Shown piece after piece: positions 29,383-36,184 of a DNA stretch of 64,000 nucleotides. The position numbers were made by a program, and so were the translations under genes. Each line of letters opens with the position of its first letter. Position 1 is the stretch's first letter. The stretch comes from an uncultured Bacteroidales bacterium (GTDB taxonomy: Bacteria; Bacteroidota; Bacteroidia; Bacteroidales; Paludibacteraceae). Below the pieces are notes generated by a model. It ran no database searches, was not told the DNA's origin, and was given only the letters and a program-made list of their open reading frames with translations. The stretch spans positions 36,160 through 100,159 of the forward strand of contig ONMU01000002.1 in the NCBI GenBank assembly GCA_900319035.1, read 5' to 3'.

Positions 29383-30492
29383 ATGAGTACATTGATTCAC
29401 ATAGACTCCGAGTACAAACAGTGGATTCAGACCCTGAGTAAGCGTTACCGCCAAAGTCAGATTAAGGCAGCGGTGCATGTTAATCATGAGATGTTGGCTT
29501 ATTATTGGGAATTAGGGCGCGATATTGTTCAGTTGCAAGCAGAGCAACGTTGGGGCAGCGGATTTATGCGCTCTTTGGCTCAAGATTTGCAGCAAGAATT
29601 GCCTGATGCAACGGGACTTACTCGTACAAATTTGTATTATTGTAAAAAGTTCTATTTGCTTTATAATGAGGATGTTATAAAATTCCCCCAAGTTGGGGGA
29701 AAATTAGAAAACCCAATTTTGCCCCAAGTTGTGGCACAAATTCAAAGCCACTTATTCGCTGTGCCTTGGGGACACCATAAATATATAATGGACAAGTGTG
29801 AGGGGAATACAGATAAGGCACTATTTTATGTGCGTCAGACCGTAGAAAACGGTTGGAGTCGTGCGACCTTGCTCAATTGGATAGACAGCAATTTGTATGA
29901 ACGTCAAGGTAAGGCATTGACGAATTTTTCTGTAACTTTACCGGAAGAGACAAGCGATTTAGCGCGTGAGATAACCAAAGATCCGTATGATTTTGCATTC
30001 GCGGGAATCACTGGTCGGTATAATGAAAAGACGATGAAAGAGGCTCTGCTGAAAAACATGACAGATTTCTTGGTGGAGTTAGGAACCGGATTTGCTTACG
30101 TGGGAAAAGAATATCGCTTGCAGATCGGGGAGACGGAGAACTTTATTGATCTGCTTTTCTATAACCTCCAACTCCGTTGTTATGTGGCGATAGAGGTGAA
30201 GATTGATAAATTTGATGCGCGTGATATAGGGCAATTAGGAACGTATGTAACGGCGGTAAATCATATCCTGCGTGATCCGGAGAAAGATAATCCGACCATC
30301 GGACTATTGGTTTGTAAGAGTAGAGATAATACCTTGGCTCAATACGCTTTGGAATCCAGCAGTCAGCCTATTGGAATCTCAGAATACGAGCTGCAAAAAC
30401 TCTATCCGACAAAGGTTGAAGGTACTATCCCAACGATTGCAGAGATCGAAAGTGTGCTGAGTGATACAAAGATAGCGGAAAGTGAGGAATAA
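29383..30492 (+). CDS. DUF1016/YhcG family PDDEXK nuclease-like protein
   Basis: 369 residues. The N-terminal DUF1016_N region (about 10-150) includes VHVNHEMLAYYWELGRDIV and a WGHHKYIMDKC segment. The C-terminal PDDEXK domain (about 195-345) has GxxFAYVGKEYRLQIG, FIDLLFYN (catalytic Asp) and AIEVKID (ExK). The family is linked to nuclease or mobile-DNA defence functions, but roles are largely unproven. The gene is AT-richer than kpsF and is followed by a RhuM remnant, so this is the left edge of an acquired block inserted behind the LPS operon. Confidence 0.9.
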   Translation: MSTLIHIDSEYKQWIQTLSKRYRQSQIKAAVHVNHEMLAYYWELGRDIVQLQAEQRWGSGFMRSLAQDLQQELPDATGLTRTNLYYCKKFYLLYNEDVIKFPQVGGKLENPILPQVVAQIQSHLFAVPWGHHKYIMDKCEGNTDKALFYVRQTVENGWSRATLLNWIDSNLYERQGKALTNFSVTLPEETSDLAREITKDPYDFAFAGITGRYNEKTMKEALLKNMTDFLVELGTGFAYVGKEYRLQIGETENFIDLLFYNLQLRCYVAIEVKIDKFDARDIGQLGTYVTAVNHILRDPEKDNPTIGLLVCKSRDNTLAQYALESSSQPIGISEYELQKLYPTKVEGTIPTIAEIESVLSDTKIAESEE

Positions 30493-31100: not shown

Positions 31101-32561
31101 ATGATTGACAAACAATTTTGCATGAGTTCATATCTTGCTTTTCGTTATATTGAGAAAGCAGATGTAGAATTCTATGAAGGAGTAAAACATAGAACAAATG
31201 TGTATATAAATCCGGCCGAGAAAGTACTAGTAAAGGATGCACAAGAAACGGATGTTGCTATTCAGAAAGTTTTTGATTCACTTAAGGGAGAACGGCTTGG
31301 ATTACTGCTTTCAGGTGGAATGGACTCGGCTATTCTTGCTTCATATATGCATGGATGTGATGCTTATACGTTCCGTTTTCTCGGTGGAGAATTCCAAAAA
31401 GAAGAATTGAATCGGGCAGAGAAATTTGCCGCTTACTATGGTTTAACGCTTCATTATGTAGATATCAATTGGGATTCCGTATTAGAGGCATTGCCGCATG
31501 TGATAGCATCTAAGGGTGCACCTGTTCATAGCATTGAGCCACAATTATATGTAGCTGCTCAGCAAGCCAAACGCGATGGAGTGAGTCGTTTAATAATAGG
31601 AGATGGTAGCGATTATGTATTTGGTGGAATGGACAAATTAATGTCTCGCGATTGGAATTATTCTGATTGGAAAGAGCGTTTTACGTACCTAAATCCGGCT
31701 TTAGTTTTGAAAGAACCCGTTGATATGGATTATTTGTTCCAACGATATAAGACGGATGAAAATGATATAGATTGGTTGAAAATGATGGATGAAGTAGCCA
31801 CTGAGGAAAGTTATAGTTCTTATGAGAATGCTTTCTATGCTGCACAAATCCCTTATACTGATCCATATGATCATTTGCAATTAGCGGAGCCCTTAAATTT
31901 AAAGCGTATTCGAAACGGAGAGTCCAAATATGTAATACGTGCATTATTTAAGATGAAATACCCGGATTTACCTCTCCCCGAAAAGAATCCGATGCCTCGT
32001 CCGGTGGATGAGTATTTTAAGGATTGGCAAGGTCCGACGCGTCCGGAGTTCCGTAGAGATATAGATATGTCTGCGCTTACCGGAAACCAGAAATGGCAGT
32101 TGTATTGTTTGGAGCAGTTCCTCAATATGTATGAGCCACTTAAAATTGGTTATACAACGGGCGTTTATGACCTATTCCATATAGGACACCTCAATCTTCT
32201 CCGCAAAGCGAAAGCGCAATGCGACTACCTAATTGTGGGTGTCTCTACTGATGATTTAGTGGAATATAAAGGCAAACGTTCTGTCATTCCGTTCGAGGAA
32301 CGCAAAGAGATAGTGGGTGCTATCAAGTATGTGGACGAGGTAGTGACGCAAGAGAATATGGATAAACTCGGTGCGTGGAAGAAATATCATTTTGATGTGA
32401 TGTTCGTTGGGGATGATTGGAAAGGCACCGACAAATGGAATAAGATAGAAGCAGACCTCGCTCAAGTGGGTGCAAAAGTGGTCTATTTCCCATATACAAA
32501 AGGAACAAGCAGCACATTGATTAATGAGACGCTTATCCGTCTAAGAGAAGAAAATAAATAA
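31101..32561 (+). CDS. Fusion of asparagine-synthase-like (PP-loop) domain and TagD-like cytidylyltransferase
   Basis: 486 residues. Domain 1 (about 1-335) has the PP-loop LGLLLSGGMDSAILASY and the IIGDGSDYVFGG segment of the synthetase domain of AsnB-type enzymes, but no N-terminal Cys2 glutaminase domain. Domain 2 (about 345-480) is a glycerol-3-phosphate-cytidylyltransferase-like unit: YTTGVYDLFHIGHLNLL (HxGH), VGVSTDDLV, GDDWKGTDKW and TKGTSST (the RTEGISTT position). The fusion suggests an ATP-dependent amidation or amine transfer coupled to formation of a CDP-activated group. It overlaps licD by 1 bp, and the block is AT-rich relative to flanking genes. Confidence 0.85.
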   Translation: MIDKQFCMSSYLAFRYIEKADVEFYEGVKHRTNVYINPAEKVLVKDAQETDVAIQKVFDSLKGERLGLLLSGGMDSAILASYMHGCDAYTFRFLGGEFQKEELNRAEKFAAYYGLTLHYVDINWDSVLEALPHVIASKGAPVHSIEPQLYVAAQQAKRDGVSRLIIGDGSDYVFGGMDKLMSRDWNYSDWKERFTYLNPALVLKEPVDMDYLFQRYKTDENDIDWLKMMDEVATEESYSSYENAFYAAQIPYTDPYDHLQLAEPLNLKRIRNGESKYVIRALFKMKYPDLPLPEKNPMPRPVDEYFKDWQGPTRPEFRRDIDMSALTGNQKWQLYCLEQFLNMYEPLKIGYTTGVYDLFHIGHLNLLRKAKAQCDYLIVGVSTDDLVEYKGKRSVIPFEERKEIVGAIKYVDEVVTQENMDKLGAWKKYHFDVMFVGDDWKGTDKWNKIEADLAQVGAKVVYFPYTKGTSSTLINETLIRLREENK

Positions 32562-33343
32562 TGGAAGATTTGCGAAAATATAATCCGGAGGGATCAACAC
32601 TCCGTAAGGCTCAAATGAAAATGTTGGAGATTTTGAAAGTAGTAGATGCTATTTGTCAAAAACACAACATTGCCTATACGCTTGACGGAGGCTCTTTACT
32701 TGGAGCTGTTCGTCATGGAGGATTCATTCCATGGGATGATGATTTGGATATTGCAGTAATGCGAGATGATTTCTTTAAACTGCGTAAAGTACTCCAACAG
32801 GAACTACCCGATTATTTGGTTTATCAGGATTATACAACCGAACATGATTATCCCTTGCTCATTGGAAAAGTAAGAGATATGCACTCTTATTTTGAAGAAG
32901 AATTTACCCATAAGTTGCATCATCAGGGCATATATATAGATATTATACCGATGGAAAAGGTGCCTTCCATGCGTTGGAAAGCTAAATTAGATTATTGGTA
33001 TGGTCATTGTTTCAGAGCATGGCATAATTATACAAATAAGAAAGACAAATTACTATCTGCCTTCGTAATGCCCCTTGTGAGTGCCTTGGTACAGGTGACG
33101 CGTCTCTTTAACAGATGTAGTGCGAGCAAGCAGATAGCACATGTATATGGATGGAAAGCGTATAATGGTTTTTCCTCGGAAGACGTATTCCCCGTCCGTA
33201 GGATGCAGTTTGAGGATATTGAGGTGTCTGTTCCTAAGAATCCCGATGCGGTACTCAAGGCACTTTTTGGCGATTACATGCAGATTCCGCCGAAGGAAAA
33301 ACGCATGACCCATACAGGACGTATTGAATTTTACGACGAATGA
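32561..33343 (+). CDS. LicD family phosphotransferase
   Basis: 260 residues. The nucleotidyltransferase-fold signature is LDGGSLLGAVRHGGFIPWDD followed by DDLDIAVMRDDF (about residues 40-70), and YIDIIPMEKVP lies further in. LicD enzymes move phosphocholine or another phosphoalkyl group from a CDP donor to a sugar. The preceding gene encodes the matching CDP-forming domain, so the two plausibly form a decoration pair; no choline uptake or kinase gene is in view, so the group need not be choline. It overlaps the next GT2 gene by 4 bp. Confidence 0.92.
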   Translation: MEDLRKYNPEGSTLRKAQMKMLEILKVVDAICQKHNIAYTLDGGSLLGAVRHGGFIPWDDDLDIAVMRDDFFKLRKVLQQELPDYLVYQDYTTEHDYPLLIGKVRDMHSYFEEEFTHKLHHQGIYIDIIPMEKVPSMRWKAKLDYWYGHCFRAWHNYTNKKDKLLSAFVMPLVSALVQVTRLFNRCSASKQIAHVYGWKAYNGFSSEDVFPVRRMQFEDIEVSVPKNPDAVLKALFGDYMQIPPKEKRMTHTGRIEFYDE

Positions 33344-34317
33344 ATCCCATCGTATCAATCATAGTGCCAGTTTATGGCGTAGAGCGGTATATCGAGCGCT
33401 GCGCGATTAGTTTGTTTGAACAAACCTATCCAAACATCGAATATATGTTTGTGAATGATGCTACTCCCGATAAATCCATCGATGTGTTACAATCGGTCAT
33501 GGAGCGTTATCCCAAACGGAAGTCATCTGTGCATATTGTAAATCATCCTCACAACAAAGGTCTGTCTGCCGCTCGGAACACCGGAATTGCTGCCTCAACA
33601 GGCGAATATATACTTCATGTAGATTCAGATGATTATTTAGATATTGTTGCAATCGAACATTTAGTCATAGAGGCATTGAAAACAAACTCCGATATCCTAC
33701 TTTTTGATACAAATGTAGTCACTAAAAACGGCGTGAGAGCCGAGCGGGTCACATATACGAATAAAATAAAATATATACGTCAACTGATACAACATACTGC
33801 CAAATGTGCGCATTGGAATAAATTCTATAGAGCTGATTTTGTTCGACAATCGGAAATCCGCAGCGATGAAAAAATCCGTATGGCAGAAGATTATGCTGTA
33901 ACTCCCCGTTTAGTGCATCAGGCAGAGAAAATATCTGTACTACATGAACCTCTATATTTTTATGAAACGACGAATCAGTCTTCCTATGTTCATAATTTGA
34001 CCAGAACTGCTATAGAGAGTCAACGACGTGCGGACTTAATCTTAATGAGGTATTTTAAACAAGTATCTGATGCCTATAATTATGCAGACGTCGTCAGCGC
34101 TATACCGCAACGTAGTATGACATCATTAATTAAGAATACGGATATAGAAACATGGCCTGAAATATTAGATGTATATCAACAATGCCTATCTCTGCCATTA
34201 GAAAAGGGTATGAGTCTCGTAAATCGCATAATCTTTTCTCTCGCCAAGAGTAGACGTTTGAAAACATTACAGGTATTTATGTGTTTTTATCACTTAGTAA
34301 TGCGTAATGACAGATGA
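33340..34317 (+). CDS. Glycosyltransferase family 2
   Basis: 325 residues. Typical GT-A start PIVSIIVPVYGVERYIERC, SLFEQTYPNIEYMFVNDATPD, GLSAARNTGI and the DxD motif HVDSDDYLD at about residue 95. The C-terminal half has EDYAVTPRLVHQA. It adds one sugar to a lipid-linked glycan in the cytoplasm. Start and stop overlap licD and the GT11 gene by 4 bp each, giving a tightly coupled operon. Confidence 0.92.
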   Translation: MNPIVSIIVPVYGVERYIERCAISLFEQTYPNIEYMFVNDATPDKSIDVLQSVMERYPKRKSSVHIVNHPHNKGLSAARNTGIAASTGEYILHVDSDDYLDIVAIEHLVIEALKTNSDILLFDTNVVTKNGVRAERVTYTNKIKYIRQLIQHTAKCAHWNKFYRADFVRQSEIRSDEKIRMAEDYAVTPRLVHQAEKISVLHEPLYFYETTNQSSYVHNLTRTAIESQRRADLILMRYFKQVSDAYNYADVVSAIPQRSMTSLIKNTDIETWPEILDVYQQCLSLPLEKGMSLVNRIIFSLAKSRRLKTLQVFMCFYHLVMRNDR

Positions 34318-35186
34318 TTCATCTTATTTTACAAGGAGGACTCGGTAACCAGATGTTCGAGTATGCGACTGCTTATGCATTGGCTCGCCACAAGAATACT
34401 TCTCTCGTTTTGGATATGTCATTCTTTGATGCTTATGGGCACAAGGAATGGTGTCGTCCCTATGAGTTGTCGGTGTTTAATCTCCACGAGAATGCGCAGT
34501 TCGAACATAATCATTCATTATCTGTACGAATCCTGCCTAAGATAGCTCGTATTTGCCGTCAGCATGAATGGAAACGATTTGGTTCTCTTGTCTTTACAAT
34601 GCGCGATTTGGGCGATGCAGGTACGTCGTCTTCCAATTTGCTATATGGGTATTTCGCTAATTATCATACATTCTCTCCTTACCGAGACGATCTACTTAAG
34701 CAGTTTACTTTTGCAAAGCCTCTTGAAGAAAACAATAAACAGATATTCCTACAAATGCAATCGACTAACTCGGTAGCCGTTCATATACGCCGTGGGGATT
34801 ATTTGAATAGCGTGAATAGAAACACATTCTATATACCTTCTGTTGATTGGTATAAGAGTGCTATAATGAAAATAAAGGAACATGTGCCTTCCCCAGTATT
34901 TTATTTCTTCTCTGATGATTTACAATGGGTGCAAGAGCAATTTTCAGACATGAGAGATGTGGTCTTTGTAGAAGGCAACAAAGGCAGCAACTCATATCGT
35001 GACATGCAACTGATGGCGGCGTGCAAGCATGCCATTATTGCTAATAGTACGTTTAGTTGGTGGGGCGCATGGCTGAACTCAAATAAACAGAAGGTGATTA
35101 TTGCTCCCTCCAAGTACTATTTGGATGAGCAAGCTAATAGCCGTTACCGCCAATCGATGTTGCTACCCGAATGGATTCAATTATAG
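34314..35186 (+). CDS. Glycosyltransferase family 11 (alpha-1,2-fucosyltransferase-like)
   Basis: 290 residues. MIHLILQGGLGNQMFEYATA at the N terminus (GGLGNQMF), the VHIRRGDYL motif near residue 160 and NSTFSWWGAWLN near 240 are the three signature blocks of GT11. Members transfer L-fucose to galactose or related sugars in the alpha-1,2 linkage. It suggests that the product of this locus carries terminal fucose, possibly host-like. Confidence 0.93.
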   Translation: MIHLILQGGLGNQMFEYATAYALARHKNTSLVLDMSFFDAYGHKEWCRPYELSVFNLHENAQFEHNHSLSVRILPKIARICRQHEWKRFGSLVFTMRDLGDAGTSSSNLLYGYFANYHTFSPYRDDLLKQFTFAKPLEENNKQIFLQMQSTNSVAVHIRRGDYLNSVNRNTFYIPSVDWYKSAIMKIKEHVPSPVFYFFSDDLQWVQEQFSDMRDVVFVEGNKGSNSYRDMQLMAACKHAIIANSTFSWWGAWLNSNKQKVIIAPSKYYLDEQANSRYRQSMLLPEWIQL

Positions 35187-35269: not shown

Positions 35270-36184
35270 ATGCTAACAGCTATTATTTGTACATATAATC
35301 GGGCAAAGTATATCGGACCGCTATTGGAGAGTATTGCGGCGAATGATTTGCCAAAAGAGGAGTATGAAATACTACTCGTGGATAATAACTGCACGGATAA
35401 TACCCGCGAGGTATGCGATGCATTTATGGTGAAACACCCGGATGTGAACTTTAGATATACAGTAGAGCCGGAACAGGGTTTGTCGGCAGCCAAGAACCGC
35501 GGTATAAAGGAGGCGAAAGGGGAGATAATCGTCTATATAGATGATGACACGTTGGTGGATCCGTGGTATTTGCGAACCTATTCCGAGTGGCTGGCAGCAC
35601 ACCCCGAAACAATGGCTTGCGGAGGACCGATCGAACCGCTCTACGAGACATCTGAACCCGAATGGATGACTCCTTATACGAAAGCCCTTTTGACCGCATG
35701 GATGAACTACGGTGACCATGTGCGTGAGTATCCGAGAGGACGATACCCCGGTGGCGGCAATGCGGCATATAGAAAGTCGGTTTTCGAGCAGGTCGGGCTC
35801 TTTAATACAGCGCTCGGACGCAAAGGAGGTAATCTTATGGGGTCTGAGGAAAAGGATATATTCGATAAGATGCATGCTTTGAAAATGCAGGTACTCTATC
35901 TGCCGTCTCCGATATTACATCATATCATACCGCAAGCAAAGTTAGAGCCTGATTATTTCAACCGACTAACCATCCAGATGGGTATTAGTGAACGTCAGCG
36001 AACTCTTGATATCAGTACGTTGAAATACCTTAAACGCCTTTTCTCGGAATGTGTCAAATGGGGTGGAACAATAGTATTGCTGTGTCTATATACAATCAGT
36101 TTCCACCCCGCTAAAGGATGGAAACTGATACAATTCCGCGCAAATGTAACCAAAGGGTTATTGGGCGTTGTTTCTGCGGCATAA
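35270..36184 (+). CDS. Glycosyltransferase family 2 (WcaA-like)
   Basis: 304 residues. LTAIICTYNRAKYIGPLLES, LLVDNNCTDNTREVC, GLSAAKNRGIKEAKGEIIVY and IDDDTLVDPWYL (DxD) define a GT2 fold; PGGGNAAYRKSVFEQVG is the acceptor-side motif. A hydrophobic segment near residues 260-275 (GTIVLLCLYTISF) may anchor it to the membrane. The 83-bp gap before it holds no promoter I can support. Its 3' end overlaps the convergent YfhO gene by 27 bp. Confidence 0.9.
   Translation: MLTAIICTYNRAKYIGPLLESIAANDLPKEEYEILLVDNNCTDNTREVCDAFMVKHPDVNFRYTVEPEQGLSAAKNRGIKEAKGEIIVYIDDDTLVDPWYLRTYSEWLAAHPETMACGGPIEPLYETSEPEWMTPYTKALLTAWMNYGDHVREYPRGRYPGGGNAAYRKSVFEQVGLFNTALGRKGGNLMGSEEKDIFDKMHALKMQVLYLPSPILHHIIPQAKLEPDYFNRLTIQMGISERQRTLDISTLKYLKRLFSECVKWGGTIVLLCLYTISFHPAKGWKLIQFRANVTKGLLGVVSAA

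Follow-up and report, generated by a model that had tools for sequence, protein, structure and literature searches.

A fused AsnB-like and TagD-like protein of a Bacteroidales bacterium as a candidate two-step source of a CDP-linked, amide-bearing donor for surface-glycan decoration

Phosphodiester-linked glyceric acid and glyceramide are already known in bacterial surface glycans (PMC2943079, PMC6222762; these, like all papers cited here, are drawn on as excerpts). In the O-polysaccharide of Providencia alcalifaciens O22, a sugar bears D-glyceramide 2-phosphate (PMC6222762), and the S-layer glycan of Paenibacillus alvei carries glyceric acid 2-phosphate (PMC2943079). For the S-layer glycosylation locus of P. 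alvei, a 2010 review lists tagD together with wsfA, a homologue of asparagine synthase, and with WsfC, which has a glycerophosphotransferase domain; this domain is proposed to add glyceric acid phosphate, and wsfA appears, in the excerpt, in a figure legend with no role assigned (PMC2943079). A 2023 review of nuclear magnetic resonance work counts glyceric acid among the phosphodiester-linked alditols of numbered O-antigen serogroups, presumably of Escherichia coli (PMC9912281). Of the capsule regions of Neisseria, one has an asparagine synthase and a different one has a glycerol-3-phosphate cytidylyltransferase (PMC6202450), and CpgD of Caulobacter forms cytidine diphosphate (CDP)-glycerate from 2- or 3-phosphoglycerate and cytidine triphosphate (CTP) (PMC12275187). 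Here we describe a protein that joins an asparagine synthetase B-like (AsnB-like) domain to a TagD-like cytidylyltransferase domain. It is encoded in a 64,000-nucleotide stretch of DNA from an uncultured Bacteroidales bacterium of the Paludibacteraceae (contig ONMU01000002.1, positions 36,160 to 100,159), which as a whole is called the window below. The gene is a single open reading frame (ORF) at window positions 31101 to 32561 of the plus strand, as are the features located within and downstream of it, and encodes 486 residues in two domains.

We propose that this fusion is a two-step enzyme making a CDP-linked, amide-bearing donor, likeliest CDP-glyceramide, for the decoration of a surface glycan. 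We give this reading a probability of about 0.55, and our confidence in the function, which is drawn from linkage, motifs and two published glycans, is moderate. In the proposed scheme, the AsnB-like half would adenylate a carboxylate with adenosine triphosphate, and free ammonia would then form a primary amide. Free ammonia is the predicted nitrogen source because this half has no glutaminase domain; ammonia is plentiful in gut and rumen. The TagD-like half would join CTP to the phosphate carried by that same compound, after which LicD in the window, or a TagB/F-type glycerophosphotransferase in relatives, would place the phosphoryl group on one of the glycan's sugars. Given the glycans with glyceramide or glyceric acid phosphate and the CDP-glycerate formed by CpgD, phosphoglycerate (2- or 3-) is the leading candidate for the acid; the donor would then be CDP-glyceramide and the decoration glyceramide phosphate. 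Sequence comparison establishes the domain content, the kept motifs and the genetic linkage, both between the halves and with CDP-alcohol phosphotransferases; from these we infer the amidation, ammonia as its nitrogen source, phosphoglycerate as the acid, which step comes first, and the product.

The division into two domains is borne out by Pfam, by an AlphaFold model with its Foldseek matches and by invariant motifs, in agreement with a preliminary description of this DNA, in which one ORF was said to join an AsnB-like PP-loop domain without a glutaminase domain to an HxGH TagD-type domain. The model of the 486-residue protein (63 aligned sequences) reaches a predicted local distance difference test score of 91.3 and a predicted template modelling score of 0.88, and its top Foldseek matches are the TagD structures 2b7l and 1coz and the asparagine synthetases 9b6c and 1ct9. 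The AsnB-like domain comprises residues 1-346 (31101 to 32138) and has the asparagine synthetase fold, with Asn_synthase PF00733 at residues 65-204 (E 5.7e-19, 69 bits against a cut-off of 21). No glutaminase family was found in the fusion protein in a Pfam search at E <= 0.1. The glutaminase domain belonging to TIGR01536 (glutamine-hydrolysing asparagine synthase) is likewise missing, the PF00733 match beginning only at residue 65, and the protein scores 55.2 bits on that model against a curated cut-off of 267.1. In an alignment of 30 AsnB-like sequences, S71, G72, G73, D75 and S76 of the PP-loop motif SGGMDS (residues 71-76, 31311 to 31328) are invariant, as are D171, K276 and R280. The GEGSDEVFGG of E. 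coli AsnB is kept in kind as GDGSDYVFGG in the window protein, and the E. coli stretch TIRAS-TP-M is replaced in the family of the window protein by SIEPQ with two residues fewer. This replacement, together with the scores below both curated cut-offs (TIGR01536 here, TIGR01518 below), is consistent with a substrate other than aspartate.

The TagD-type domain comprises residues 347-486 (32139 to 32558) and matches CTP_transf_like PF01467 at residues 351-474 (E 2e-18, 67 bits against a cut-off of 21). Its closest solved relatives by sequence are ethanolamine-phosphate and glycerol-3-phosphate cytidylyltransferases (PDB sequence matches 1coz, 2b7l and 3elb). The HIGH motif lies at residues 360-363 (32178 to 32189). 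In domain numbering, H14, G16, H17, K44 and K46 are invariant in 24 TagD-like sequences, and H14, H17 and the two lysines align with those of 1coz; HxGH and lysines 44 and 46 are signature residues of TIGR01518 (glycerol-3-phosphate cytidylyltransferase). The score on TIGR01518 is 101.4 bits against an equivalog cut-off of 165.4, and the alignment places PYTKGTSST (residues 464-472, 32490 to 32516) where TagD and ethanolamine-phosphate cytidylyltransferase have RTxGxSTT. Among the 62 AsnB-partnered TagD domains compared, which include near-copies such as those of three Lactiplantibacillus plantarum plasmids and of two loci of one genome, the arginine of RTxG is replaced by Tyr in 59 and His in three, and is found in none. 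Plain TagD identity was therefore rejected. The phosphonate cytidylyltransferase Fom1 (5x3d) likewise reads PYTPGISST; hence replacement of the arginine by itself does not remove activity.

The preliminary description suggested a search across genomes for the same two domains and their neighbours, and the architecture does recur. A contig scan with the fusion as query gave 57 relatives, 54 of them with an AsnB-like domain (L086-L088 are without it), and a TagD-like partner is fused to that domain or lies within 2.5 kb of it in 52 of the 54 loci. The exceptions are L079, at a contig edge, and L062. In the latter, two AsnB-like genes lie in tandem (L062:10001-12103), and the roughly 10 kb to each side of them show no TagD-like match. 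Besides the window, the AsnB-TagD fusion occurs in 29 Bacteroidales loci, most of them titled Paludibacteraceae; the fusion is found in reverse order, TagD-AsnB, in L066 (Selenomonadaceae), and L067 has a fragmented TagD part. Separate genes, mostly with TagD first, come mostly from Bacillota, along with a Synergistaceae bin and a Methanomethylophilaceae bin (the bins may be mixed).

Three evenly drawn genome samples, each counting its centre genome, give the frequency of the module. The family of the window yields an AsnB-like match in 6 of 61 genomes, each with a partner either fused to it or nearby; besides the window genome these are G335 and G303 with fusions, G347 and G308 with an adjoining TagD-like match, and G296 with pieces on two contigs. 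Another order has an AsnB-like match in 9 of 344 genomes, with a partner inside the 4-kb locus in seven of the nine; G554 and G532 show no partner in the locus, and their gene looks truncated. For another class, that of G355, the count is 6 of 395, with a partner in 6 of 6, four of these being diverged AsnB-TagD fusions. Sampling around G355 at the level of class and phylum returned the same carriers and hardly any genome with SLH (a match in 2 of 296 genomes). Across 295 genomes of the window's order, AsnB-region matches at E <= 1e-10 came only from the window genome and from G227 (34% identity), and at the same threshold the AsnB-like protein of L. plantarum matched nothing in phages. The module is thus patchy in distribution. 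The fusion is not a chance event and the pairing extends well beyond the window; the linkage in 52 of 54 loci and the fusions in both orders support the view that both domains belong to one pathway.

The same loci connect the module to transferases. LicD and Glyphos_transf (PF04464) are families that use CDP-alcohol donors, and one or the other lies within 2 kb in 44 of the 54 loci (LicD in 32, Glyphos_transf in 12). With a stricter LicD score of 60 bits the total is 42 of 54, made up of 30 with LicD and 12 with Glyphos_transf, the other 12 having neither. Pfam bears out Glyphos_transf in five examples. The density of LicD and Glyphos_transf matches is 0.226 per kb near the module versus 0.007 farther off in the same loci. 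The preliminary description had placed the fusion and LicD in one pathway: the single pathway finds support in the pairing of the halves and in these 44 loci, while LicD proves to be only one option, its place being taken by Glyphos_transf in 12 of the 44.

Among 72,556 plasmid records (PLSDB), the AsnB-like gene is present in six, all from L. plantarum; since this food bacterium has the module on plasmids, the proposal is directly testable there. In the three plasmids inspected, the module lies inside an exopolysaccharide cluster with genes for a Wzz-type protein, a kinase, a priming transferase, glycosyltransferases, an EpsG-type protein, a glycerophosphotransferase, the TagD-like and AsnB-like proteins and a flippase. 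No acid-making gene is listed in these three clusters, for which the PLSDB gene tables are incomplete, and the acid is hence probably a central metabolite. In two of the plasmids, a 201-base coding sequence annotated as amidohydrolase follows the module (L100:15130-15330, L101:15130-15330).

Other genes were seen beside the module or its parts. An Amidohydro_3 protein (PF07969 in L055) is encoded directly upstream of the fusion in seven loci, L050-L055 and L082. At L068:882-5123, a phosphonate-type gene set recognised by eye (phosphoenolpyruvate mutase with nucleotidyltransferase domains, an iron alcohol dehydrogenase and a decarboxylase) stands upstream of separate TagD-like and AsnB-like genes. 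A divergent AsnB-like paralogue followed by a DUF362 protein was found at L057:14054-16329, L073:7659-9949, L081:11103-13365 and L096:1456-3526, DUF362 being assigned by PF04015 in L057, by clustering in L073 and L081 and by eye in L096; this pair suggests a related pathway.

Within the fusions, the two halves differ in their conservation, as seen in the window fusion and in those of L032-L056, L082 and L083. Identity to the window over residues 1-280 is 50-63% for 18 of 21 fusions (73-85% for L032, L034 and L056), whereas over residues 295-486 it is 82-98% for every one of the 21. The identities of the two parts correlate weakly (r = 0.19 over 231 pairs). In the fusions of L050-L055 and L082, the AsnB domain groups with L079/L085 of Clostridia, whereas the TagD domains sit with those of other Bacteroidales fusions. 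Recent recombination was rejected as the cause, since both halves come close to saturation at their fourfold-degenerate sites, with identities to the window of 0.24-0.48 and 0.20-0.48. The mosaic would follow from an ancient swap of the AsnB half, from strong constraint on the 3' remainder or from the two combined.

A fuller version of our proposal can be stated only tentatively, and we place it a little short of even odds: the fusion would be a bifunctional CDP-glyceramide synthase, using free ammonia to amidate phosphoglycerate (or CDP-glycerate) and CTP to activate it. The enzyme would occur across Bacteroidota and Bacillota and in two bins, one from Synergistaceae and one archaeal, and its AsnB half would have been exchanged while the TagD half stayed nearly constant. 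This enzyme route is named nowhere in the literature searched, in which no enzyme for the glyceramide amide turned up. If the reading holds, the fused or two-gene module would be a genomic marker predicting such decorations, also in microbes known as metagenome bins.

Several observations weigh against the proposed function. Ten of the 54 loci are without LicD or Glyphos_transf within 2 kb (12 at 60 bits). Since the fusion served as query for the 57 loci, the counts lean towards linkage, and since some LicD and Glyphos_transf queries were taken from beside the module, the contrast between near and far favours near matches. The P. alvei glycan is reported, in the excerpt, as bearing free glyceric acid and not the amide (PMC2943079); either an amide there was missed or lost, or the AsnB homologue of P. 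alvei acts otherwise. Finally, six of the 68 TagD-like domains of the clade have no adjoining AsnB-like gene, though many tree loci are flanked by only about 1.5 kb, which limits calls of absence. In the tree concerned (93 TagD-type domains; few columns and many long branches; domains below 75 bits or 330 bases excluded), these six and the 62 AsnB-partnered domains form one group with a Shimodaira-Hasegawa-like approximate likelihood ratio (SH-aLRT) of 98, and 25 other TagD-type domains from the window's order fall outside it. For three of the six, G027, G255 and G018, a whole-genome search gave no AsnB-region match. The TagD type therefore need not always go with an amide, and in some organisms it may activate an acid that is left unamidated. 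The unpartnered domains would fit, without proving it, a sequence in which CDP-glycerate is formed first and amidated later. One unpartnered example is the close TagD-like relative in Parabacteroides distasonis (L102:8010-9269), which adjoins LicD and has no AsnB-like neighbour within the fetched sequence.

Among the alternatives, the one that survives best, although we consider it unlikely, keeps the two-step scheme and changes the core phospho-acid to phosphoserine, phosphoglycolate, 4-phosphoerythronate or 6-phosphogluconate. The sequence does not fix the acid, and an AsnB half as variable as the one seen here (50-63% in 18 of 21 fusions) would allow different acids; the literature, as far as excerpted, gave only glyceric acid and glyceramide as phosphodiester-linked acids or carboxamides, which argues weakly for phosphoglycerate, the search having been aimed at those two. 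We think it less probable again that the halves work apart, the TagD half supplying LicD with CDP-glycerol or CDP-ethanolamine and the AsnB-like half amidating a uronic acid of the glycan. AsnB homologues in some O-antigen loci have been proposed to amidate uronic acid sugars, both enzyme types are found in surface glycan loci, and TagD-like relatives exist without an AsnB-like gene. Separate roles are at odds, however, with the pairing in 52 of 54 loci and the fusions in both orders, and with the TagD half itself, in which the RTxG arginine is absent from all 62 partnered domains and the window protein falls below the glycerol-3-phosphate cut-off; moreover, a nucleotide-sugar 6-dehydrogenase was seen by eye in one neighbourhood (L072), no tally being made.

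Slightly lower still we rank a substituted amide, formed if the AsnB-like half joined the phospho-acid to an amine other than ammonia. AsnB-fold enzymes can take amine nucleophiles, as beta-lactam synthetase does, and carbapenam synthetase 1q15 is among the fold matches of the fusion, which has no glutaminase domain; L085 has an aminotransferase gene (PF00155) between its TagD-like and AsnB-like genes, but no amine-making gene recurs by eye in 27 neighbourhoods. That the fusion is the cell's own asparagine synthetase, joined to a cytidylyltransferase by chance, we regard as very improbable: although the window genome (91% complete) has no AsnA, GatB or other PF00733 match, the same-genus G245 (100% complete) has no AsnA, GatB, PF00733 or fusion match either, so that the genus seems able to live without asparagine synthetase, G341 is without AsnA and has only weak PF00733 matches, and the gene has glycosyltransferase genes around it, occurs patchily (6 of 61 family genomes) and scores 55 against 267 bits.

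The genes downstream of the fusion are as the preliminary description had them, an overlapping licD followed by adjacent GT2 and GT11 genes. The LicD family phosphotransferase (32561 to 33343, 260 residues) starts at the last base of the fusion-gene stop codon (TAATG, a one-base overlap at 32561) and belongs to its family by a PF04991 score of 136.3 bits against a gathering cut-off of 22.6. A GT2 glycosyltransferase gene (33340 to 34317, PF00535) overlaps licD by 4 bases and is itself overlapped by 4 bases by a GT11 gene (34314 to 35186, PF01531); a second GT2 gene follows at 35270 to 36184 (PF00535). The G+C content is 0.38-0.41 over 31-35 kb of the window, lower than at 25-29 kb (0.49-0.54) and at 39-44 kb (about 0.50). 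As it is likewise low (0.37-0.43) over 22-25 kb, the dip is suggestive only. Directly upstream of the glycan genes, at 29383-30492, Pfam identifies a YhcG/DUF1016 PDDEXK nuclease gene; YhcG/DUF1016-type members of the same protein cluster also lie near the fusion in L049 and L082.

Set against known enzymes, the window protein shares with asparagine synthetase B the PP-loop SGGxDS, the GxGSDxVFGG region and the fold, and differs from it in having no glutaminase domain, in SIEPQ with its two-residue gap and in its score below the TIGR01536 cut-off. With TagD glycerol-3-phosphate cytidylyltransferase it has in common the fold, the HxGH motif and both lysines (44 and 46); unlike TagD, it is fused to an AsnB-like half, stays under the TIGR01518 cut-off and has Tyr in place of the RTxG arginine. 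The Campylobacter phosphoramidate pathway, Cj1416-1418, combines a glutamine kinase with a COG1213 cytidylyltransferase. The latter is Cj1416, and CpgD is of the same COG1213 type (PMC12275187), whereas the second half of the window protein has the CTP_transf_like/TagD fold. CpgD resembles the window protein, as proposed here, in being a phosphoglycerate cytidylyltransferase; it has no homology to TagD according to its paper, serves a sphingolipid and, in the excerpt, is described without amidation (PMC12275187). The preliminary description knew of no described pathway with this exact domain set, and the P. alvei locus calls for a correction here: tagD, wsfA and the glycerophosphotransferase domain of WsfC are listed there together (PMC2943079). 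Homologues of TagD and of asparagine synthase, along with a CDP-glycerol glycerophosphotransferase domain, thus accompany a glycan with glyceric acid 2-phosphate, as separate genes and with a free-acid product, unlike the window, the two loci being likened by gene listing and not by sequence (PMC2943079). P. alcalifaciens O22, known here from chemical structure alone, carries the very kind of decoration that we predict (PMC6222762).

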